DNA of 50,769 nucleotides, taken from positions 1 to 50,769 of IMG/VR virus record IMGVR_UViG_3300046820_001078; one strand, given 5' to 3'. Every line of letters begins with the position of its first letter. Position 1 is the stretch's first letter. Below are positions 33-15,675 of the stretch, in pieces. Below the pieces are notes generated by a model. That model was not told where the DNA came from, did not search any database, and was given only the letters and a program-made list of their open reading frames with translations. Position numbers and translations under genes: made by a program. The DNA is from a virus.

Positions 33-1055
33 TTACTTCTTAAGTGCAACCTTAGCCTTTGGATTCTTTGCGTTCCACTTCTTTGCTAGAGCGTTGTACT
101 GTGCAATGTAGGTAGCCTTTGCAAGATCTGTTGCTGCCTTTGCTGTCGCTGCTGCTGCTGTTGCAGTTGCAGAGTCTGATGCACGACCAGCCTTTTCTGC
201 TGCTAGTGCTGCATTAGCTGTTGCAAGTGCCTGATTTGCTGCTGCAAGTTCTGCATTCTTTGCTGCAAGTTCTGCTGCAATATCACGAACTACAATTGTA
301 GCGCTTACAGAACCAACTGGTGTTGCTAGGCCTGTTACGGCTGTTGCTACAGTTGCATATGCAACTACTGTGATTGATCCAGTTGCAGGAACTGTTACAG
401 TCTGCTCCTTGGTTCCAAGAGTTGCTACTGCTGTGTCTGTTGTCAGCGCTGTTGCCAATGCTGCTCCTGAGCTTGAAACCAAAGTATTAATTGTGGCTCC
501 ACCCTTTAGATTACCAAACACGTCGTATCCAGACACCTTAAGCACCTGTGATGTACCTGCTGCTGCTGATGCAGGAGCAGTTAGTGTAATTGAGTTCAAA
601 GCACCTGCGGTACCTTGTACATAATAAATTGTTGTAGTTCCAGCACGAGTAATCGATACTGATCCCACTGATGTGCTCTTAGTATATACATAAAAATCTG
701 CTGAGTTTCCAGTTCCTGTTGAAACTGAAAGTGTTGAAGAACCGTTTGATGCGGTTACTGGTGCTGCTGATGTTGCTAGAGCAGGAACAATTGTCGCATT
801 AACTGCAACTGCTGTTACTACTGTGCCAGTATCTACTGATGTTACAGCGATCTTTAGCGCATCTGCTGCATCGATACTGTTGTCTGCTGGTACTGGTAGT
901 GATACAGGAGTTGTTACTACTGTTCCACCTGTTGCTGCAGATCCCGCCACCGTGAGGGTAACAGTTCCAGCATTAGCCTGAGCTGCTGGCGATACAAGCA
1001 TTGTGCTAGTCAGGGCTGCAGCGATGATTAGCGATACTTTCTTAAATGAATTCAT
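33..1055 (-). CDS. Secreted Ala/Thr/Val-rich protein
   Basis: About 340 residues. The N-terminus is a signal peptide: basic MNSFKK, a hydrophobic stretch and a likely cleavage after QANA. The middle is rich in Ala, Thr, Val and Ser and looks like beta repeats of a surface or adhesion protein. The last 80 residues are Ala/Glu/Lys-rich with a coiled-coil pattern and a basic end. I chose the ATG at 1055 because AAGGAG lies four bases before it; an ATG directly upstream (1058) and one at 1082 are possible. It is the last gene of the left block. The family is not recognised. The composition resembles the C-terminal tail of the subtilase at 1770-2933, so a cell-surface or virion-exposed role is a guess. 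Confidence 0.75.
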   Translation of the reverse strand: MNSFKKVSLIIAAALTSTMLVSPAAQANAGTVTLTVAGSAATGGTVVTTPVSLPVPADNSIDAADALKIAVTSVDTGTVVTAVAVNATIVPALATSAAPVTASNGSSTLSVSTGTGNSADFYVYTKSTSVGSVSITRAGTTTIYYVQGTAGALNSITLTAPASAAAGTSQVLKVSGYDVFGNLKGGATINTLVSSSGAALATALTTDTAVATLGTKEQTVTVPATGSITVVAYATVATAVTGLATPVGSVSATIVVRDIAAELAAKNAELAAANQALATANAALAAEKAGRASDSATATAAAATAKAATDLAKATYIAQYNALAKKWNAKNPKAKVALKK

Positions 1056-1095: not shown

Positions 1096-1281
1096 TTAGT
1101 TTAGTGCAATTACTTTTACTTGAAACGAACACGGATCTCCGCCTTCATCCCATTCTTGCATTTCTTCTTCTGACATTGGGGGACCATCGTGCGTATTGCA
1201 AAATACATCCGAAATCCATCCTCTGTCATATCCATTCTTAAGCCATATTTCAAACTCAAGATGATCCTGGTCTATATCCAT
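1096..1281 (-). CDS. Conserved small acidic phage protein, function unknown
   Basis: 61 residues, strongly acidic, with an EEEMQEWDEGGDPC segment near the C-terminus and a second Cys in FCNTHDGPP. From memory, similar DGPP...EEGGDPC small proteins occur in actinobacterial phages without known function; this is recollection and was not searched. The start overlaps the end of the thioredoxin gene by 10 bases, so the two are translationally coupled. The paired Cys residues could bind metal. Confidence 0.7.
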   Translation of the reverse strand: MDIDQDHLEFEIWLKNGYDRGWISDVFCNTHDGPPMSEEEMQEWDEGGDPCSFQVKVIALN

Positions 1282-1574
1282 TCTGACAACTCCTCAAGCA
1301 AAACATGCTTAGGCTTGGCACCTGTAATTTTCTTTACTGGGACACCAGACTTAAATAGTATCATAGTTGGGATAGTTTGTACATCAAATTCCTCCGATTT
1401 TACTGGATTCTCATCAACATTTAACTTTCCAACCCATAATCCACGCTCTTCTGATATTTCATCTAGGATTGGAGACACCTTTTTGCATGGGCCACACCAT
1501 GGTGCCCAAAAATCAATTAAGACAAGATTGTGAGCGCCTAAAACACCAGCAAAGCTTTCGTCTGTTACTATCAC
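1272..1574 (-). CDS. trxA: Thioredoxin
   Basis: 100 residues, the full length of a thioredoxin. The redox motif W-C-G-P-C is at residues 26-30 after the hydrophobic strand LVLIDFWAP, and the conserved cis-proline is in TIPT (Pro69). It should act as a cytosolic dithiol reductant, for example for ribonucleotide reductase or for keeping phage proteins reduced; no reductase gene is in this window. The start ATG overlaps the stop of the upstream 68-residue gene in an ATGA arrangement, and the end overlaps the next gene by 10 bases, so it belongs to the operon led by the subtilase. Phage thioredoxins are well known; the partner here is unknown. Confidence 0.95.
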   Translation of the reverse strand: MIVTDESFAGVLGAHNLVLIDFWAPWCGPCKKVSPILDEISEERGLWVGKLNVDENPVKSEEFDVQTIPTMILFKSGVPVKKITGAKPKHVLLEELSEWI

Positions 1575-1777
1575 TTGTCTTTTAGCTCCTCTGCTGCTGC
1601 ATTAAATTTATTCATGAAGTTTTGTATAACAAACAAGGTAGTCTCGTGTGCATTCTTAGACATTGCTGAAAATGCTTGCTGATTTCTTTCGTCTTCAGGA
1701 AGTGCTGCAGACCATTTATTGTATAGGTCTGTAGACACTTCTTCAATTATTCCATCTAGAACTGTTTGTTCAGCCAT
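1571..1777 (-). CDS. Small hypothetical protein between subtilase and thioredoxin
   Basis: 68 residues, predicted mostly helical, with no Cys and no membrane segment. It overlaps the subtilase end by 8 bases and the thioredoxin start by 4 bases (ATGA), so it is a real operon member. I do not recognise the family. Confidence 0.7.
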   Translation of the reverse strand: MAEQTVLDGIIEEVSTDLYNKWSAALPEDERNQQAFSAMSKNAHETTLFVIQNFMNKFNAAAEELKDK

Positions 1778-2933
1778 TTAGTTTTGCCAACCACATCGCT
1801 TTAGTTGCAGCAAGCTTGTCCTGTGCAATCTTTAATTCATTTTGATATTGTGTTTCTGCTGCTGCAATTGCTGCATTGACTTGTGCTTGAAGTGCTGCTT
1901 TTGCTGCTGCATCGGCTGCTGCTTTTGCTGCTGCATCGGCTGCTGCTTTTGCTGCTGCATCGGCTGCTGCTTTTGCTGCTGCATCGGCTGCTGCATTATT
2001 AACAGGCGTAGCAGGTGCTGCAGAGGTTGCAGAAGTAATCATCTTTGTAAAAGTGCCTTGTCTTCCAACTGTCTTAATAGCATTGGACTTCATAATATTA
2101 ATTAGCTCAACGCCAGACTTACCAGTATTTGAATACAGTGATAAATATGTTGCTGCTGCCACTTGTGTAGCAGAAGATGTTCCAGCAATATTCTTAGTTA
2201 TATTTCCTGGACCAACTGCTGGCATATTGCCTAGAGCAAAGAAGTCTAATAGAGCAGAATCGTTATTGCTATAAGAAGCAATCTCACCAATTTGATCTAC
2301 GGCTCCAACTGCAACTACATCTGAGATGCATGAAGGCCAATCGATTCTAGAATAATCACGTGCATTACCTGCTGCAGAAAACACTGGAATAGACATTGAA
2401 TTTAGAGATTGAACTGCAGAAACAGTTCTTGGAAATGTTGGGCAGTAATCTGTTCCAGACTTACCAAGCATGCCATTGCTTCCCTGTGAAATAGAAACTG
2501 CCTTTACATTATACTTAGCAGCATTTTCTCTTACCCAAAATAGCGCTGCAGAAATTGTTGATTCACCAGTCGGCTTTCTTAAACCTTCTGGGGTATTAGC
2601 AATAATCTTAATGAAAAGAATCTTAAGTTTAGGGTTGTATTGAACTGCTGTGCTAGCCATAAGAGTTCCATGATCAAAGCCATTTTTAGTAATTAAATCT
2701 GATGGCATAGAAGCAGCTCCGCTGCCTTCTTGAAAGTTAGTTCCGTTAGGACACAAGGCGTATTCTAAGATACAGACTTCGCCTACGACCTTACTTTGAA
2801 GACCTGGGAGTGATGTATCGATTGCTGTGTCTAGGATTGCTAGAACTGGTGCGTCTACACCAGATGCCTGTGAAATTGCTACAGGGGATAGAAGTGATAA
2901 AGTAAGTACCGCCGTGATTAGTTTATTTTTCAT
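1770..2933 (-). CDS. Secreted subtilisin-like (S8) serine protease
   Basis: 387 residues. A signal peptide (residues 1-24) is followed directly by the catalytic domain. The triad is visible: Asp35 in AILDTAID, His88 in FDHGTLMA and Ser253 in AGTSSATQ, with the oxyanion Asn190 in SAAGN. No propeptide of normal size separates signal peptide and catalytic domain. After residue 300 comes an Ala/Lys/Asp tail with tandem AAADAAAK units and a basic helical end. It should act outside the cytoplasm. A promoter (TTGACA, 16 bases, TATACT) ends six bases before the ATG, so the mRNA is probably leaderless. It heads an operon with a small protein, thioredoxin and an acidic protein. Possible roles are host-surface proteolysis, prophage-state fitness or virion protein processing; the context does not decide. 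Confidence 0.88.
   Translation of the reverse strand: MKNKLITAVLTLSLLSPVAISQASGVDAPVLAILDTAIDTSLPGLQSKVVGEVCILEYALCPNGTNFQEGSGAASMPSDLITKNGFDHGTLMASTAVQYNPKLKILFIKIIANTPEGLRKPTGESTISAALFWVRENAAKYNVKAVSISQGSNGMLGKSGTDYCPTFPRTVSAVQSLNSMSIPVFSAAGNARDYSRIDWPSCISDVVAVGAVDQIGEIASYSNNDSALLDFFALGNMPAVGPGNITKNIAGTSSATQVAAATYLSLYSNTGKSGVELINIMKSNAIKTVGRQGTFTKMITSATSAAPATPVNNAAADAAAKAAADAAAKAAADAAAKAAADAAAKAALQAQVNAAIAAAETQYQNELKIAQDKLAATKAMWLAKLNG
1903..1994 (-). repeat. 24-bp tandem repeat in the subtilase tail
   Basis: Three full 24-bp units and most of a fourth lie head to tail, each encoding AAADAAAK. They are nearly identical at the DNA level, which points to recent slippage or expansion. The product is an extended charged Ala-rich helix. 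Confidence 0.9.
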
Positions 2934-2939
2934 ACCCTA

Positions 2940-2967
2940 AGTATACTAAATACAGATGGTTTGTCAA
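2940..2967 (-). promoter_or_regulatory. Promoter of the subtilase operon (leaderless)
   Basis: TTGACA at 2962-2967 and TATACT at 2940-2945, spacer 16 bases. The -10 ends six bases before the ATG at 2933, so transcription should begin at or next to the start codon. The -35 overlaps the stop codon of the upstream 51-residue gene. Confidence 0.8.
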
Positions 2968-3119
2968 GGCTTTTCTTTGTACCACTTTCCTGCGTCTAGA
3001 TCAGACCTATTATTAGTCTTATCTAGTATATTGTATATCATGCCAAGCATTGTTTCTGTAATAATGCTGAGTGCTTCCACTCTTACTTCCAGCTCTTTAA
3101 TTCTTTTAGATTTCCTCAC
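2964..3119 (-). CDS. 51-residue helical protein (GTG start)
   Basis: Found by reading the gap between the subtilase and the Zn-ribbon membrane protein. The frame starts at GTG (3119) and runs 51 codons to TGA at 2964-2966. The N-terminus is basic (KSKRIKEL) and is followed by a heptad-like helix (ELEVRVEALSIITETMLGMI) and a polar end with DAGKWYKEKP. It overlaps the upstream gene by 14 bases, with GATAGGG as a weak ribosome site. Codon use looks like that of its neighbours. Function unknown. Confidence 0.6.
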   Translation of the reverse strand: MRKSKRIKELEVRVEALSIITETMLGMIYNILDKTNNRSDLDAGKWYKEKP

Positions 3120-3477
3120 TATTTGCCCTATCTATTGGTGTTGGTGCAGTAGCAAAGCTACCGCAGAGTAGGCATTCCATATCTAAAAAGTAATTAGATA
3201 TTTCATAATCTACAAAAGTAACTTTAAGTAGCCATACCTGTGAGCCACATGGGCATACATGAGTAGGGGTTCCTCTTAGATCCATAGCCTTATCATAATC
3301 AACTGGGGGGAGATACCCTGGATCGCTTTTAACTATATCCGCAATAGCCTCTTGCACAGCTTCTTCATACTTATCTATGTAATAAATGCCAATCTTAAAT
3401 CTTCTTGCGAACATTCTCAGAAAAAATGCTGACAAGATGACCGAAATAATGATTGAAATGATAAATGCAATTTTCAT
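3106..3477 (-). CDS. Membrane-anchored zinc-ribbon protein
   Basis: 123 residues. One N-terminal membrane helix (residues about 3-25) is followed by a basic RRFK stretch, which predicts a cytoplasmic C-terminus. The C-terminal half has CPCGS and CLLCGS, two Cys pairs about 30 residues apart, as in a zinc ribbon. The segment RGTPTHVCPCGS resembles, from memory, conserved actinophage proteins of unknown function. A -10 hexamer ends six bases before the ATG, predicting leaderless translation. Confidence 0.75.
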   Translation of the reverse strand: MKIAFIISIIISVILSAFFLRMFARRFKIGIYYIDKYEEAVQEAIADIVKSDPGYLPPVDYDKAMDLRGTPTHVCPCGSQVWLLKVTFVDYEISNYFLDMECLLCGSFATAPTPIDRANSEEI

Positions 3478-3483
3478 TATGTA

Positions 3484-3512
3484 ATTATACCTTAAACCTG
3501 GATGTATGTATA
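3484..3512 (-). promoter_or_regulatory. Probable promoter of the Zn-ribbon membrane protein gene
   Basis: TATAAT at 3484-3489, 17-base spacer, and a weak -35 TATACA at 3507-3512. The -10 ends six bases before the ATG at 3477, as at several other genes in the window. Confidence 0.6.
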
Positions 3513-4049
3513 GGGTGGTGCCACGCTCATATTAAATTCAGTTGCTGCTTCTAATGCAGCCTTAAGTCTAAGTCTAGGGTTCTTTTGATTCTTTGTTGCG
3601 TATAGTGCTCCAAGAGCTATCTGTCCGCCGCTTCCTTCTGCCATATAGTTTACAACATTTTCGCCAACATGAAAGTCTTCATCTATGGTAAATAGTCTAC
3701 CGCAGACTCCAACGATAAAGATTCCACCAGTATCTTCTTCTGAAGATGATCCTATGCTTCCATAGCCGTTATCTTTAAACGCAACCTTTACAGAGTCAAT
3801 AAACTTTGTTCTCATAAACTTATCAAGACCAGAGTTTGTTTTAGTTGGAGTATATTTTGGTGGTGTCCACGAGTATTGTAAGATCTGACCCATTCTAAAT
3901 GAATCTGTGAATGCTATTCCGTATTGACCAACTTTAAAACACTTTGGCTCTCTTCTGGATATGATCCACCCAGTTTTATCATCTGATGCAGCATGATCGG
4001 AACCCATATATACGGTTCCGTTTTGAGCAATAGCAACTATGCATGTCAT
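3492..4049 (-). CDS. Proteasome/HslV-like Ntn hydrolase
   Basis: 185 residues beginning MTCIVAIAQNG. After removal of Met1 the N-terminal residue is Thr, the nucleophile of proteasome beta and HslV subunits. Asp18 in MGSDHA equals mature Asp17, and Lys36 in REPKCFKV lies close to the catalytic Lys33 position. The late MAEGSGGQIALGAL segment matches the conserved GSGG turn of the family. Members form barrels that degrade peptides; no cognate ATPase is in the window, so it may act alone or with the host ATPase. The promoter TAGACA-17-TATACT ends six bases before the ATG. Similar Ntn hydrolases are known in actinophages. Enzymatic activity is inferred. Confidence 0.82.
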   Translation of the reverse strand: MTCIVAIAQNGTVYMGSDHAASDDKTGWIISRREPKCFKVGQYGIAFTDSFRMGQILQYSWTPPKYTPTKTNSGLDKFMRTKFIDSVKVAFKDNGYGSIGSSSEEDTGGIFIVGVCGRLFTIDEDFHVGENVVNYMAEGSGGQIALGALYATKNQKNPRLRLKAALEAATEFNMSVAPPYTYIQV

Positions 4050-6275: not shown

Positions 6276-6446
6276 TTATTCCTCTTCTCTATTTCTAATT
6301 GAATATGTTATTATCCATATAACTAAAGTCATTATAATTGCATATCCAACTATTGTTTTTGCTGATCCATCTAGAACTACCCAAGCAATAAACATGCCCA
6401 GGAGAGTCCAAAGTTGATCTATTACATCCTTGATTAACTTCATCAT
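6276..6446 (-). CDS. 56-residue two-helix membrane protein, holin candidate
   Basis: Found by reading the gap. The ATG at 6446 overlaps the stop of the upstream gene in an ATGA arrangement and has AAGGAG six bases before it. The product has a short polar start, a hydrophobic helix (LWTLLGMFIAWVVL), a turn with DGSAK, a second helix (VGYAIIMTLVIWIITY) and the charged end RNREEE. This is the layout of a small class II holin. The next gene starts three bases after its stop. Lysis function is inferred only from topology. Confidence 0.68.
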   Translation of the reverse strand: MMKLIKDVIDQLWTLLGMFIAWVVLDGSAKTIVGYAIIMTLVIWIITYSIRNREEE

Positions 6447-9052
6447 GGCTTTCTCCTTCTCATACCCTTGGATTCACCAGAGGATCCTCCTCCACCTGAC
6501 CCGCCAGAATTGCCCCCGCCTGAGCTTGAGCCTCCTGTAGATCCTCCAGTGGAACCTGCTGCAGCCCCAACGGCGTTCATAGCCGCTCCTGCTGCCACAA
6601 CTGTTGCAACAACCATATCTGTTGCTTCTTCTCTTTCTTCTTTCGTCATATCTGCGCCAATACTACCAAGTGCTGCTAATGCAGCTCCTGGGTTATTAAA
6701 TAATTCTGCTGCAAATGCTGCTGGATCTGATACCAATTCAACTTGAACAGCAACCTCTGCTGTAATAACAACAGATTCACCATTTTCAGATGTGCGAACA
6801 TCTACTGGTGTTTCTGGAGGTAAATCTGCCAATTTAATTCCAGCCTCTGCTACCTGCTCTTTAGTAAGATTTTTACCTTCTGGAACTGATTGAATTAATG
6901 CATCAGCAATAATATCTTTTTCTGCTTCAGACAACTTGCCATCTGAGCTAGCCAATGCAACAATTGCTGCAACATCTTCTTTTGATACTTCTCCATCTGA
7001 GGCAAGTGCTTTTAACACTGCTTCTTGATCTGCTACTGAAACTTTACCATCTGCTGCTAATGCTTCAATTAATTGATTAGTTTCTTTTGCATCAATTTCT
7101 CCATCTGCTGACATTGCATCTGCAATATCTGCAACTTCTGTGCTATCTAATTTACCGTCTGCTAATGCATCATCAACAGTATTATTTACATCTTCTTTTG
7201 ATCCCGCCTCTGGCTCAACGGCTGGTGGTTCTTCTGCAGGTGGTTCTTCTGCAGGTGGTTCAACGGCTGGTGGCTCAACGGCTGGTGGTTCTTCTGCAGG
7301 TGGTTCTTCTGCAGGTGGTTCTTCTGCAGGTGGCTCTTCTGCAGGTGGTTCAACGGCTGGTGGCTCTTCTGCAGGTGGTTCAACGGCTGGTGGCTCAACG
7401 GCTGGTGGCTCAACGGCTGGTGGCTCAACGGCTGGTGGTTCAACGGGAGCGGGTGGAGTAGGAACTACTACAGGAGTTGGGGCAGGAATAGAATTAATAA
7501 CTGTCTGTGCTGTTTCAATAATTGTTGGTGCAGTTAATACTTTTTCAACTGCAGTAGATACAACTGCAAGTGCTGCAACTTTATTTGTTAAATCTGTATT
7601 TGCAGTAGATAATGCTGTTATTGTATTATTTGAAACAGTTGCAATTGGAGCAATTGGCGTATTGCTTGCTGTATTTGCTGCTACAACTGTTGTAATTGCA
7701 GAGTTTAATGTTGCAATTTGTGCATTTGCTGTTTCAATTGCTGCTTGTACTGTAGCGGTATTTGGATCTGGAATTGGTGTAAATGTTGTACCTTGGCTTA
7801 TAGTTCCATTAAATCCAGGCCCAGAATTAGTGTCTTGAATTGCTGTTACTGATCCACCAGTAGTTTCTCTTACATTAAATCTAGTTCCATTAGGAATTGG
7901 CCCAGTTACATTTACATCTGCTGACCATGCTCCATCTGCTGGGTTGACGTCAGCATTAAATCTAATTTGTGTCATTTGTGTATCAGCAGTCATTTGTGGG
8001 TATGGTCTTACATCCCATGCAATAGATAATGTATTTGTGGTTGTTGAATAAGTAACTCCAGAGCCATTACTCCATGTAGTCCAGTCATATCCTGCTATAG
8101 AAATAGAAGGAGCATTGGGAGTTGAATAATAGTTTCCGCCTTCATTTACTCCAAAGGTAATTGTTGCATTAGATCCAACATAGACATTTGAATAAGTTAC
8201 TCCGCCCATTTGTAAATTAAATGGAAGAATCATTCTAACTCCAGCATCGTCTGTATTTTCCAGAACATTCCGTGTTGTGCCAATTGTGGCCACTAGAGCA
8301 TTTACTGCATCCTGAGCATTATTAATTGCAATATTTGCTTGGGTTAATTGTGTTTGTGCTTCTGTCCGTGCAGGTGTTACCGCTGCTACCGCCGTAGTTG
8401 CTGTAGCAACTGTTGCGGTGGCCGTATCTATTGCTGTCTGTGCGGTTTGAACTAAAGCCGTGGCTGTTTCTGATTGAGCAATTTCTGTTGCAATTGCTGC
8501 AGCAACTTGAGCTACCGTTGTAGGGGCTTCTGTCATTAAAGGAGTTGCTGTAGATATTACTGTGGCTGTTGCAGAATCTATGGTAGTAACGGCTTGCGTT
8601 ACTATTGTTTGTGCTGCTGTAACTTCTGGTGCTTGAGTTGTGGCTGCCACTGGTATCGCAGCTACGGATTGAGTGACCGATGCTACTGTTGAAGTAACTG
8701 TCTGAGTAACTGCTGTTGCTGTTTCTACAGCTGAGGATACATTTGAAACTTCTGCTACCGAAGCGGTGGCTGCTGTAACTGCTGTATTTGCTGCTGCTAC
8801 AGCAGTATTAGATGCTGCTACTGCTTGAACCGCTGTTGCTACTGTTACTGTTGCTGTATCTGATGCTGCTACCGCTTGTGCAACTTCTGTTGCAGCCGTT
8901 GTAAGTGCTGTGTTAACTGCTTGTTGTGCAGGGCTTACTACTACTTGTTCAGCTGGTGCTGGGACTTCGTCTGCGTATGCATTATTTGGGCCAAAAAGGA
9001 AAAGCCAGCCAATTATAAAAAGGCTGGTAGCGAATAAACGAATTCTGGTCAA
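6443..9052 (-). CDS. Large secreted repeat protein with EPPA repeats and DGKL units
   Basis: 869 residues, starting at TTG (9052) with GGAGG eight bases before it. Residues 1-27 are a signal peptide ending AYA. Then come an Ala/Thr/Val-rich helical region, a globular beta domain (residues about 265-420, rich in Tyr, Trp and Asn, lectin-like in look), a second Ala/Thr region, about 16 tandem five-residue VEPPA/EEPPA units, five DGK/DGE-type units of about 18 residues that resemble EF-hand or dockerin calcium loops, and a Gly/Ser-rich tail ending in RRRKP. It precedes two holin-like genes. A role as a surface, adhesion or virion-decoration protein is possible; no known family is recognised as a whole. 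Confidence 0.8.
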   Translation of the reverse strand: MTRIRLFATSLFIIGWLFLFGPNNAYADEVPAPAEQVVVSPAQQAVNTALTTAATEVAQAVAASDTATVTVATAVQAVAASNTAVAAANTAVTAATASVAEVSNVSSAVETATAVTQTVTSTVASVTQSVAAIPVAATTQAPEVTAAQTIVTQAVTTIDSATATVISTATPLMTEAPTTVAQVAAAIATEIAQSETATALVQTAQTAIDTATATVATATTAVAAVTPARTEAQTQLTQANIAINNAQDAVNALVATIGTTRNVLENTDDAGVRMILPFNLQMGGVTYSNVYVGSNATITFGVNEGGNYYSTPNAPSISIAGYDWTTWSNGSGVTYSTTTNTLSIAWDVRPYPQMTADTQMTQIRFNADVNPADGAWSADVNVTGPIPNGTRFNVRETTGGSVTAIQDTNSGPGFNGTISQGTTFTPIPDPNTATVQAAIETANAQIATLNSAITTVVAANTASNTPIAPIATVSNNTITALSTANTDLTNKVAALAVVSTAVEKVLTAPTIIETAQTVINSIPAPTPVVVPTPPAPVEPPAVEPPAVEPPAVEPPAVEPPAEEPPAVEPPAEEPPAEEPPAEEPPAEEPPAVEPPAVEPPAEEPPAEEPPAVEPEAGSKEDVNNTVDDALADGKLDSTEVADIADAMSADGEIDAKETNQLIEALAADGKVSVADQEAVLKALASDGEVSKEDVAAIVALASSDGKLSEAEKDIIADALIQSVPEGKNLTKEQVAEAGIKLADLPPETPVDVRTSENGESVVITAEVAVQVELVSDPAAFAAELFNNPGAALAALGSIGADMTKEEREEATDMVVATVVAAGAAMNAVGAAAGSTGGSTGGSSSGGGNSGGSGGGGSSGESKGMRRRKP
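6860..7190 (-). repeat. Five DGK/DGE (EF-hand-like) protein repeats
   Basis: Five units follow the pattern [AS]-D-G-[KE]-[LIV]-x3-[DE] at 17-20 residue spacing. The DNA units are diverged, so the repetition is old and under protein-level selection. The Asp-Gly-x-hydrophobic-x3-Glu pattern resembles half of a calcium-binding EF loop, but the usual first Asp residues are not all present. Confidence 0.75.
7209..7443 (-). repeat. 15-bp tandem repeats encoding VEPPA/EEPPA
   Basis: About 16 head-to-tail 15-bp units, in two main versions that differ in the first residue (Val or Glu). The product is a proline-rich stalk. Near-identical units imply frequent copy-number change. The repetition also keeps other frames open on both strands. 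Confidence 0.93.
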
Positions 9053-12464: not shown

Positions 12465-13103
12465 TTACTTCTTCTTTGTTGTTGGGTTTGTTTCTGTCTT
12501 TACAGCAGCCTTTTTAGCTGCTGGCTTGGCAGGTGCTGCTTTCTTTGCTGGTGCTGGTGCCAACTTGTTTAGTAGTGGGGCATCTTCTTCTCCAGCATAT
12601 ACTGGTCGTCCCCAACCAACAACTGCATTAAGTAGTTTCTTTTTGTTATCCTTGACATATCCACGAGTTTTCTCTACGCACATTCCGCCGTTGCGCTGAT
12701 CTCCCTTAGCAGTCCCTGAAGTGTTTCCTTCAATAACCTGGATTGTTCCGTCGCCATTGTTCTTAATGCAAAGACCGACATGCGAGATACGATTGACGCC
12801 ATCATCTGGAAAATCAAAATAGATCCAGTCTCCTGCCTGCGGATCATCATTACGAGCATCCGACCATCTTTCATTCTTCTTGAACCAGTCAGATGCTGCT
12901 ACTGTTGCTGCACTCTTAGGATACTTCTTTGGATCTAGGCCTGCAGTAAATGCACACCATGAAACAAATGACTGGCACCATGGAAGAAAGTTTGCACCTG
13001 TCCACTTACCATATTTTGTCTCATTATCTTTTGGACCTTCAATTGTCCCAATTTCTTTCTTTGCAACCTCAATGATTGCTTCAAGGCTTCCTTTTACTGA
13101 CAT
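12465..13103 (-). CDS. Endolysin with CHAP amidase/endopeptidase domain
   Basis: 212 residues. The N-terminal CHAP domain (residues about 5-165) has catalytic Cys43 in LPWCQSF, His108 in ISHVGLC and the following IEGN acid/amide. It should cleave peptidoglycan peptide or amide bonds at lysis. There is no signal peptide, so it needs a holin. The C-terminus (residues 170-212) is a Lys/Ala/Pro-rich basic tail like those of histone-H1-type or wall-binding linkers, with no known binding domain. GGGAG lies about eight bases before the ATG. A TATAAT at 13146-13151 lies upstream with a poor -35. Confidence 0.9.
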   Translation of the reverse strand: MSVKGSLEAIIEVAKKEIGTIEGPKDNETKYGKWTGANFLPWCQSFVSWCAFTAGLDPKKYPKSAATVAASDWFKKNERWSDARNDDPQAGDWIYFDFPDDGVNRISHVGLCIKNNGDGTIQVIEGNTSGTAKGDQRNGGMCVEKTRGYVKDNKKKLLNAVVGWGRPVYAGEEDAPLLNKLAPAPAKKAAPAKPAAKKAAVKTETNPTTKKK

Positions 13104-14175: not shown

Positions 14176-14249
14176 TGCGGCAGGTAGGACTCGAACCTAC
14201 GATTACCGAATTATGAGTTCGGGGCTTTAACCAACTAAGCTACTGGCGC
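14176..14249 (-). tRNA. tRNA-Met (CAT anticodon)
   Basis: The acceptor GCGCCAG pairs with CTGCCGC except for one C-C mismatch. The anticodon stem CCGAA/TTCGG holds CTCATAA (anticodon CAT), and the T arm is GTAGG/CCTAC. It lacks the three G-C pairs of an initiator anticodon stem, so it is an elongator Met tRNA or, if lysidine-modified, tRNA-Ile2. Its 5' half overlaps the end of the carbamoyltransferase gene by 23 bases. Confidence 0.88.
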
Positions 14250-15675
14250 CTGTTATTATATTATACCCGTAGTGCGCCTGCCAGTCAATAGCATCTTGCT
14301 CATCATTTAATAAAGGCTGACCTTTAATATTTAAACTAGTATTTAAAAGTACTGGACATCCAGTATCCCAATACCACTTTCTCAAAAGCATGTGCAGCCC
14401 TGGATGTTGATCTCTATTTACTGTTTGTACTCTAGAAGTTCCATCTTTATGAACAACTGAAGGTATCTTGTCTGGCTGTTTACACTTAACAGTATATTGC
14501 ATATAAGGAGAGGCAAAGTCCATGTCAAACCATTCACTTGCAAACTCTTCTAAAACTACTGGTGCAAAAGGCCTGAATTGCTCTCTCTGCTTAATCATAT
14601 TAACTTTGTCTTTAATGTTTGGATCTCTAGGATCAGCCAATATACTCCTGTTACCTAGAGCTCTAGGACCATATTCTGCTCTTCCAGTTGCCACCGCCGC
14701 TATTTTATTGTTCTTTAGCTCTGCAAGTATTTTATTGATTGGATATTCGCCACCCATGTCGTAGCCCAAATACGGTGTCTTCCACTCTAGATGTTTACCA
14801 TAAAGAGCGGCTGCCGCTCCTAATGATGAACCAGCATCTCCTGGGTTTGGCATAATCCATATGTCCTTAAATATCTTCCAAAGCAATGTGTTTGCTGATG
14901 AGTTTAATGCACATCCACCCATAAAAACCAGATTGTCTTTGCCAGTAATTGATTTAGCCATACGCATAAAATCATTTAGTCTTTGTTCGTAAACAACTTG
15001 AACTGCAGCAGCAATGTCAAACCTATCTTGATCTGACAATATGGGGCCCCAGTCATTTATTCCTTTATGAAAATTATATTTTTGATGGCTATATGAGGGG
15101 AAGTAAGAATCTACATCCTTGTAGTATCTTGTCCAATCACCGTAGGCAGCCATTCCCATCATAATATATTCTTCTTGGTTTGGCATTAGCCCTATAAGCT
15201 TAGTAAATGCTGAATAGAATAAGCCAAAGCTTACTGGATAATTTTGCTTATATTTAAGACTAATGTTTTCCCCATCTCCTACCCAAATAGTAGATGTATT
15301 GTATTCTCCTATAGCATCAAGAACTACTATAGCCGCATTATTAAATTGGCTGGTGTAATATCCAGCTGCTGCATGTGAGTAGTGATGGCTAAATGATTTC
15401 CTTGGAACTCCTGGCAAGTCGAACTTGGGCTTCCAGTCTCCAAAACCACCCCTTAGAAATAGCCTAGAGGCCTTTAGAAGCGGTTTCTCGTAGTAGGCTA
15501 TGTGGTCTGGTCTACCGTAAGACAATGCGTCTTGAATCAGGCTATCGTTAATATACCAGTCATTTTTTTGCTTACTATATCTTTCTGAATGACCAGCAAA
15601 CAATATCTCCCCATCTTTAATTAAAGATACTGAAGCATCATGCGAAGTTTCATTTATTCCTAATATTATACTCAT
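14227..15675 (-). CDS. NodU/CmcH/TobZ-type O-carbamoyltransferase
   Basis: 482 residues. The N-terminal Kae1-like domain starts GINETSHDAS and has HSERYSKQKND, the metal-binding cluster HHYSHAA (His97, 98 and 101) and DAIGEYN (Asp120). The C-terminal YrdC-like half has GPRALGNRSILADPRD, QREQFRPFAP and LLNTSLN. The family uses carbamoyl phosphate and ATP to make carbamoyl-adenylate and moves the carbamoyl group to a hydroxyl of an antibiotic, Nod factor or, in some viruses, 5-hydroxymethylcytosine. At 482 residues it is shorter than usual (550-600). It overlaps the SGNH gene by four bases at its start. Its stop codon lies inside the tRNA-Met gene. The substrate here is unknown. Confidence 0.93.
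   Translation of the reverse strand: MSIILGINETSHDASVSLIKDGEILFAGHSERYSKQKNDWYINDSLIQDALSYGRPDHIAYYEKPLLKASRLFLRGGFGDWKPKFDLPGVPRKSFSHHYSHAAAGYYTSQFNNAAIVVLDAIGEYNTSTIWVGDGENISLKYKQNYPVSFGLFYSAFTKLIGLMPNQEEYIMMGMAAYGDWTRYYKDVDSYFPSYSHQKYNFHKGINDWGPILSDQDRFDIAAAVQVVYEQRLNDFMRMAKSITGKDNLVFMGGCALNSSANTLLWKIFKDIWIMPNPGDAGSSLGAAAALYGKHLEWKTPYLGYDMGGEYPINKILAELKNNKIAAVATGRAEYGPRALGNRSILADPRDPNIKDKVNMIKQREQFRPFAPVVLEEFASEWFDMDFASPYMQYTVKCKQPDKIPSVVHKDGTSRVQTVNRDQHPGLHMLLRKWYWDTGCPVLLNTSLNIKGQPLLNDEQDAIDWQAHYGYNIITGASSLVG
14260..14288 (-). promoter_or_regulatory. Promoter for the tRNA-Met/tRNA-Arg pair
   Basis: TTGACT at 14283-14288, a 17-base spacer and TATAAT at 14260-14265. It lies wholly inside the 3' end of the carbamoyltransferase gene and is placed to start transcription a few bases before tRNA-Met. 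It may also feed the SGNH gene downstream. Confidence 0.82.

Follow-up and report, generated by a model that had tools for sequence, protein, structure and literature searches.

A putative exported S8 subtilase with no room for a propeptide, encoded by a probable phage of freshwater actinobacteria

The subtilase gene and its neighbours

The window, the whole stretch of 50,769 nucleotides of viral DNA that was analysed (IMG/VR record IMGVR_UViG_3300046820_001078), encodes on its minus strand (1770..2933) a protein of 387 residues, identified from its sequence as a full-triad subtilase of family S8 (hereafter S8) and consisting of a signal peptide, a catalytic domain (residues 24-303; 2025..2864, minus strand) and an Ala-rich tail (1773..2024, minus strand) made up of the last 84 residues, 48% of them alanine. 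Because of this tail, the full-length protein matched no Pfam family at E <= 0.1; with the tail trimmed, it matched PF00082 (E 8e-15, 55 bits against a cut-off of 21.8), and the domain also matched subtilisins in the PDB. An AlphaFold model (pLDDT 88) predicts the subtilisin fold of family S8 and aligns with sphericase 2ixt over 244 residues (VIA-align Z 31.0, rmsd 2.0), a match with which many subtilisins tie. The catalytic residues Asp35 (2829-2831), His88 (2670-2672) and Ser253 (2175-2177, all on the minus strand) stand in the order of family S8 and are accompanied by the oxyanion residue Asn190 (2364-2366, minus strand), and the catalytic domain contains four cysteines (Cys54, Cys61, Cys164 and Cys202). 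All eight of these residues are identical in 83/83 unique S8 sequences, and the loss of the triad in relatives that an earlier note on this DNA had named as evidence against its reading was not seen. The 50 unique S8 ORFs from the third scan described below, two of which are fragments (55 and 202 residues) and seven of which are shared with the 83, have the same triad, asparagine and cysteines wherever the ORF spans the position. S8 is presumably an active protease.

A Sec-type signal peptide was read from residues 1-23 (2865..2933, minus strand) and aligned with those of 36 relatives. The likely cleavage site, placed by eye from S-Q-A, leaves about 12 residues before the catalytic aspartate, and since this aspartate is residue 35 of the precursor, no propeptide fits between signal peptide and domain. 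In canonical secreted subtilisins, a propeptide of about 75 residues separates the two; the S8 precursors are too short for it, the median being 38 residues through the catalytic aspartate, that residue included. When the first start codon is taken, the distance to the aspartate ranges from 33 to 91 residues among unique relatives, the long N-termini in that range probably being start-codon artefacts. A crude rule recognised a signal-peptide-like N-terminus in 122/124 S8 sequences, from which export of the protein is predicted. The earlier description of a secreted, full-triad subtilase with almost no propeptide thus agrees with the PF00082 match, the triad, the signal peptide and the position of Asp35.

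On the same strand, S8 is followed by p68 (68 residues; 1571..1777), a thioredoxin with the motif WCGPC (1272..1574; PF00085, E 9e-25) and p61, a conserved small protein of 61 residues (1096..1281). The genes overlap by 8 nt (S8/p68), 4 nt (p68/thioredoxin) and 10 nt (thioredoxin/p61), and the proposed operon of S8, a thioredoxin and two small proteins stands as the earlier note described it. Neither p68 nor the thioredoxin has a signal peptide by eye, and p68 had no match in phages. Beyond p61 is sec349 (33..1055, minus strand), a secreted protein with its own ribosome site, whose model has two Ig-like beta-sandwich domains and helices in its C-terminal part; a tblastn search of the phage collection with sec349 gave no match, nor did a search of 101 host-family genomes with it as single query, which was run without a positive control. 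Upstream of S8, also on the minus strand, are the small protein p51 (2964..3119), p123 (3106..3477), which has a hydrophobic N-terminus and CxCG/CxxCG motifs, and an HslV-like Ntn hydrolase (3492..4049; phrog_1040, E 3e-18), the latter two with leaderless promoters of their own. The HslV-like protein, encoded in the same gene run as S8, begins MTCIVAI.

Farther off, at 6443-9052, is the gene for sec869, a secreted protein of 869 residues with a signal peptide; its match to TIGR04320, the SEC10/PgrA surface exclusion domain, is weak (E 4e-4; 19.7 bits, the cut-off being 70). The CHAP endolysin that had been reported earlier was confirmed at 12465-13103, about 9.5 kb from S8; in one related locus (L005), whiB and an ORF similar by eye to this endolysin are found about 3 kb upstream of S8. 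The earlier note had also called S8, sec349 and sec869 similarly Ala-rich, which stands as to composition (48% in the S8 tail, 24% in sec349 and 19% in sec869) but not as to the tail, which is optional: fewer than 20 residues extend past the domain in 40/83 unique relatives (38/83 by a cruder length rule). A surface-sorting motif common to the S8 tail and the C-terminus of sec349 was considered and rejected, as the ends differ by eye and those 40 relatives are tail-less.

Conservation, promoters and divergence in related phages

Three samples of loci were compared: 80 loci kept of 82 relatives from a scan of viral contigs for the S8 domain; the best 80 of 333 relatives found with the upstream HslV-like protein as query, a sample not chosen by S8; and the best 80 of 164 relatives found with a divergent HslV-like query, no HslV start being shared between the second and third scans. 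S8 occupies the same slot in 78/79 evaluable loci of the second scan (L136 is too short and L114 has no S8) and is present in 74/77 of the third, the exceptions being L232, L233 and L258, which do contain p68; L236, L257 and L259, which extend no more than 402 nt beyond the HslV-like gene, were left out of the 77, and all of these counts are of related contigs, some near-identical and therefore not independent. S8 is a near-core gene of its phage group. The stable gene order is HslV-like, p123, p51, S8, p68, thioredoxin, p61, sec349, broken by contig-end cuts and by p51 or p108 calls that are missing in some loci; the operon for which a search in related phages had been advised is thus present there with its order conserved. 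In some relatives (L062 at 7132-7665; L063, L064, L068 and others), p68 and the thioredoxin are separated by about 500 additional nt. The four S8-less loci (L114, L232, L233 and L258) all keep the thioredoxin and p68, and some phages must therefore manage without S8. A functional tie between S8 and the thioredoxin was not supported: the latter lacks a signal peptide, and in 4/4 of these loci it is found together with p68.

Judged from its upstream sequence, S8 is leaderless, in agreement with the earlier description: a promoter TTGACA-16-TATACT (2940..2967, minus strand) has its -10 element ending 6 nt before the ATG, and a ribosome-site word was found in 0/87 unique S8 upstream regions. A scan of promoters overall returned 25 promoter-like sites versus 24.3 in shuffles, the S8 site being second-best (11 of 12); as this total is no better than that of shuffles, position and conservation carry the case for the S8 promoter. 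A -10-like hexamer at exactly 6 nt, a spacing that was first noticed and only afterwards counted, precedes 8 of the 57 window ORFs examined, where 0.26 would be expected from density (Poisson 5e-10). These eight starts, all on the minus strand (2933, 3477, 4049, 5967, 9300, 19891, 29680 and 39723), form a leaderless phage promoter class. The spacing is conserved among the relatives for three of the eight genes: of the 87 unique S8 upstream regions, 33 have the hexamer at 6 nt and 19 at 7 nt, the rest being outside the pattern at these spacings, and it is at 6 nt in 82/94 for p123 and 70/97 for the HslV-like gene. The start of sec349 is ordinary, with the hexamer at 6 nt in 0/81 and a ribosome site in 79/81. 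In L114, the S8 promoter is kept and runs directly into p68; L232, L233 and L258 have neither the S8 gene nor its promoter, and their p68 directly adjoins p51 or overlaps with it.

Median identities, computed among 71 sequences from the 1274 pairs whose HslV-like proteins have an identity of 0.90-0.93, are 50% for S8, 57% for p68, 74% for thioredoxin, 80% for p61 and 48% for sec349; thioredoxin and p61 are fair yardsticks of divergence, which the HslV-like protein is not, since the HslV-based samples were selected for HslV similarity. At close range, the dN/dS of S8 is 0.066 and 0.071 (12 and 34 non-independent pairs), and S8 is under purifying selection at short distance. Identity in S8 correlates with identity in p51 (r = 0.74), less with p68 (0.38) and hardly with sec349 (0.19); the correlation between p68 and thioredoxin is 0.47.

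These comparisons bear on two alternative roles. The first, which the earlier note had suggested, is that S8 matures the phage's own exported proteins sec349 and sec869, whose genes are adjacent or nearby and which, like S8, are Ala-rich and have signal peptides. However, sec349 is kept in all three S8-less loci that reach it (L114, L233 and L258), its identity barely follows that of S8 among the 71 sequences, and each of the four sec349 clusters occurs together with a single S8 cluster of 24, so that sec349 alleles must have been exchanged independently of S8. The retention of sec349 without S8 and the independent alleles argue against S8 and sec349 as an enzyme-substrate pair, and a maturation role is improbable. 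The second concerns the fold of S8. The propeptide-less subtilase ASP of Aeromonas sobria is served by an external chaperone, ORF2, which is exported and encoded downstream. By analogy, p68 could be the missing folding chaperone or an inhibitor of S8, being encoded directly downstream with an 8-nt overlap, and ASP is likewise described as propeptide-less in the passages of PMC9549277 that deal with it. The candidate is a very poor one: by eye, a signal peptide is present in 0/39 unique p68 sequences, p68 is kept in 4/4 S8-less loci, and its identity correlates less with S8 than with thioredoxin. The correlations and the S8-less loci led us to reject a partnership between S8 and p68.

Absence of the calcium-A loop and the problem of folding

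The segment from the active-site His88 to Phe107 at the next strand has 20 residues (2613..2672, minus strand), nine fewer than where a subtilase has retained the calcium-A loop, and the same length was found in 123/123 unique phage relatives. The best PDB match of the S8 family profile was 6ube, a 266-residue engineered BPN' to which the segment aligned gap-free; as we read its length and letters, 6ube carries the 75-83 deletion of calcium-independent BPN', with which S8 would then share its length through the His-helix segment. In the profile alignment, the nine residues absent from S8 coincide with the calcium-A loop of canonical subtilisins (BPN' 75-83; 20 versus 29 residues). In contrast to the engineered enzyme, S8 is natural and its signal peptide abuts the domain; mature BPN' is aligned only from its residue 24 on, its first 23 residues staying unmatched (chain range 24-272), and S8 has four cysteines, whereas subtilisins have none according to a statement in PMC9549277. 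Helix 88-99 is unbroken in the predicted model of S8.

Subtilisin is the standard example of a protein whose folding depends on its propeptide. Loss of the loop alone does not mean loss of the prodomain, since the loop is also missing from two long subtilases of the probable host family (L095 and L096) in which 77-95 residues precede the catalytic aspartate. Proteinase K likewise combines the absence of this loop with a prodomain. Absence of the loop may be a requirement for unaided folding, but is not sufficient. In the folding experiments described in PMC4865297, deletion of residues 75-83 made BPN' less stable, but its helix became continuous and it unfolded and refolded much faster; an engineered 22-87 disulfide accelerated the folding of loop-deleted BPN' by 700-850-fold, and the folding of Sbt-70 was still sped up by the prodomain by >10^7 per molar. 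Two disulfides are probable in S8, given its four invariant cysteines, which might pair as Cys54-Cys61 and Cys164-Cys202. Because of the loop gap, the unbroken helix of the model and these cysteines, we read S8 as a putative natural prodomain-independent subtilase, probably braced by disulfides.

Propeptide-less subtilases are presented as rare exceptions in PMC9549277, which speaks of only two in the passages concerned; ASP, which shares with S8 the combination of secretion and no propeptide, is assigned there to the kexin subfamily and differs from S8 in this respect. The subtilases of the isolated phages SP-15, Goe3 and Moorella MTATph1 have the S8 domain in common with that of the window (26-28% identity), but 46-76 residues precede their catalytic aspartate and their His-to-strand segment has 29 residues. 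Those of SP-15 and Goe3 have no signal peptide by eye, in contrast to the signal-peptide-like N-terminus of S8, and that of MTATph1 has a short hydrophobic start; S8 therefore does not belong among phage proteases of the intracellular-subtilisin type, which lack a signal peptide. The best NCBIfam model for the domain is that of the T7SS mycosins (TIGR03921, E 2e-6), at 27.1 bits far below the cut-off of 278.75, and the PatA/PatG cyanobactin protease model TIGR03895 scores 25.7 against 421.05. A literature search limited to open-access papers and narrow terms recognised no paper on a phage-exported subtilase.

Cellular relatives and the proposed role

Of 24 pattern matches in a scan of genome contigs, which requires near-exact peptide patterns and is not a census, one proved to be a relative: it is a short secreted S8 encoded by a Nanopelagicaceae MAG. 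One gene on that contig is, we assume, proC-like, and the others look cellular. Matches to S8 at E <= 0.001 were found in 26/201 genomes of this family, and of 15 S8 ORFs examined, 11 are shorter than 340 residues with 28-46 residues before the aspartate, while the His-to-strand segment has 20 residues in 13 and 24 in two. The short ones (L082 and its family) resemble the phage S8 in having about 300 residues, a signal-peptide-like N-terminus followed by the domain, and the 20-residue segment, but they are only 30-40% identical to it, and their 294-329 residues leave no room for a tail; their loci (2.4-7.5 kb) contain no match to the other phage operon proteins nearby. In a quick tree with long-branch warnings, the phage S8 sequences form one group beside cellular S8 with weak support (SH-aLRT 67). 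By sequence, the nearest cellular kin among those found are thus the short secreted subtilases of the Nanopelagicaceae. An alignment query of sec349 matched 4/201 genomes, convincingly only G122 (L185). The homologue in G122 (L185; also L189) sits beside cellular-looking genes, and the phage sequences fall into four allele clusters. As the window also encodes WhiB and a DnaE 58% identical to those of Streptomyces phages, and as S8 and sec349 have kin in that family, the host is likely one of the Nanopelagicaceae and the virus probably a phage of freshwater actinobacteria. Cultured phages of Nanopelagicales are 39 kb in size according to PMC10202952, the main text of which names no subtilase, although its annotated genes include some that degrade host proteins; the main text of PMC6802176 contains no protease terms and cites thioredoxin as a defence against reactive oxygen.

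From these relatives, a history may be sketched that falls somewhat short of even odds: in a secreted subtilase lineage found in Nanopelagicaceae and near-core in their phages, the calcium-A loop would have been lost, then the prodomain, and two disulfides fixed, permitting export and folding without foldase or zymogen and an enzyme that is active at once at the infected cell's surface. The same relatives suggest a nutritional role, in which S8, as a copy of a host scavenging enzyme, would degrade external protein and the peptides would feed the infected cell; its nearest kin do stand among ordinary genes in the family of the Nanopelagicaceae MAG, and the phage group lies beside host-family S8 in the tree. 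Nevertheless, an enzyme that is almost never missing from the phage gene run would seem to serve a core step and not to be an optional aid, and we consider the nutritional role unlikely.

The reading we prefer, with a probability of roughly 0.45, is that S8 is a minimal exported subtilase with its own leaderless promoter that folds without a prodomain and cuts envelope proteins of the infected cell. Transcribed from that promoter, S8 would leave the cell by the host Sec pathway and have its signal peptide removed, then fold outside the membrane without a prodomain, as may be possible with the fold braced by two probable disulfides and free of the calcium-A loop, which makes the folding barrier higher. 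Thereafter, it would most likely cut envelope proteins of the infected cell, whereby a protein coat would be cleared ahead of release or receptors removed. Envelope proteins are the most likely substrate on grounds of topology, by which a nutritional or virion role would appear no different. That S8 travels in the particle as a virion or entry protease is even less probable than a maturation role. Two weak BFVD matches, named as baseplate wedge and tail fibre proteins (rank 31 with E 7e-5 and rank 32 with E 4e-4), might point to it, but S8 stands alone as a protein, begins with a Sec-type signal peptide and is encoded about 35 kb from the recognised tail genes of the window.

If S8 is exported and active, its retention by almost every member of a common phage group would point to an envelope-directed step outside the standard lysis models. 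The calcium loop was once removed by hand by engineers, and S8 may show how such enzymes fold unaided; nature would then have built what protein engineers made by hand. A large natural family without propeptide or calcium loop would also offer dozens of ready-made test cases for folding.

Two other genes of the window were noted in passing. The ORF at 5983-6273 matches phrog_26427, labelled 'nuclease' (E 3e-25), a label that may be wrong, as the product looks membrane-embedded by eye. At 14227-15675, the phage carries a carbamoyltransferase gene (PF16861, PF02543).
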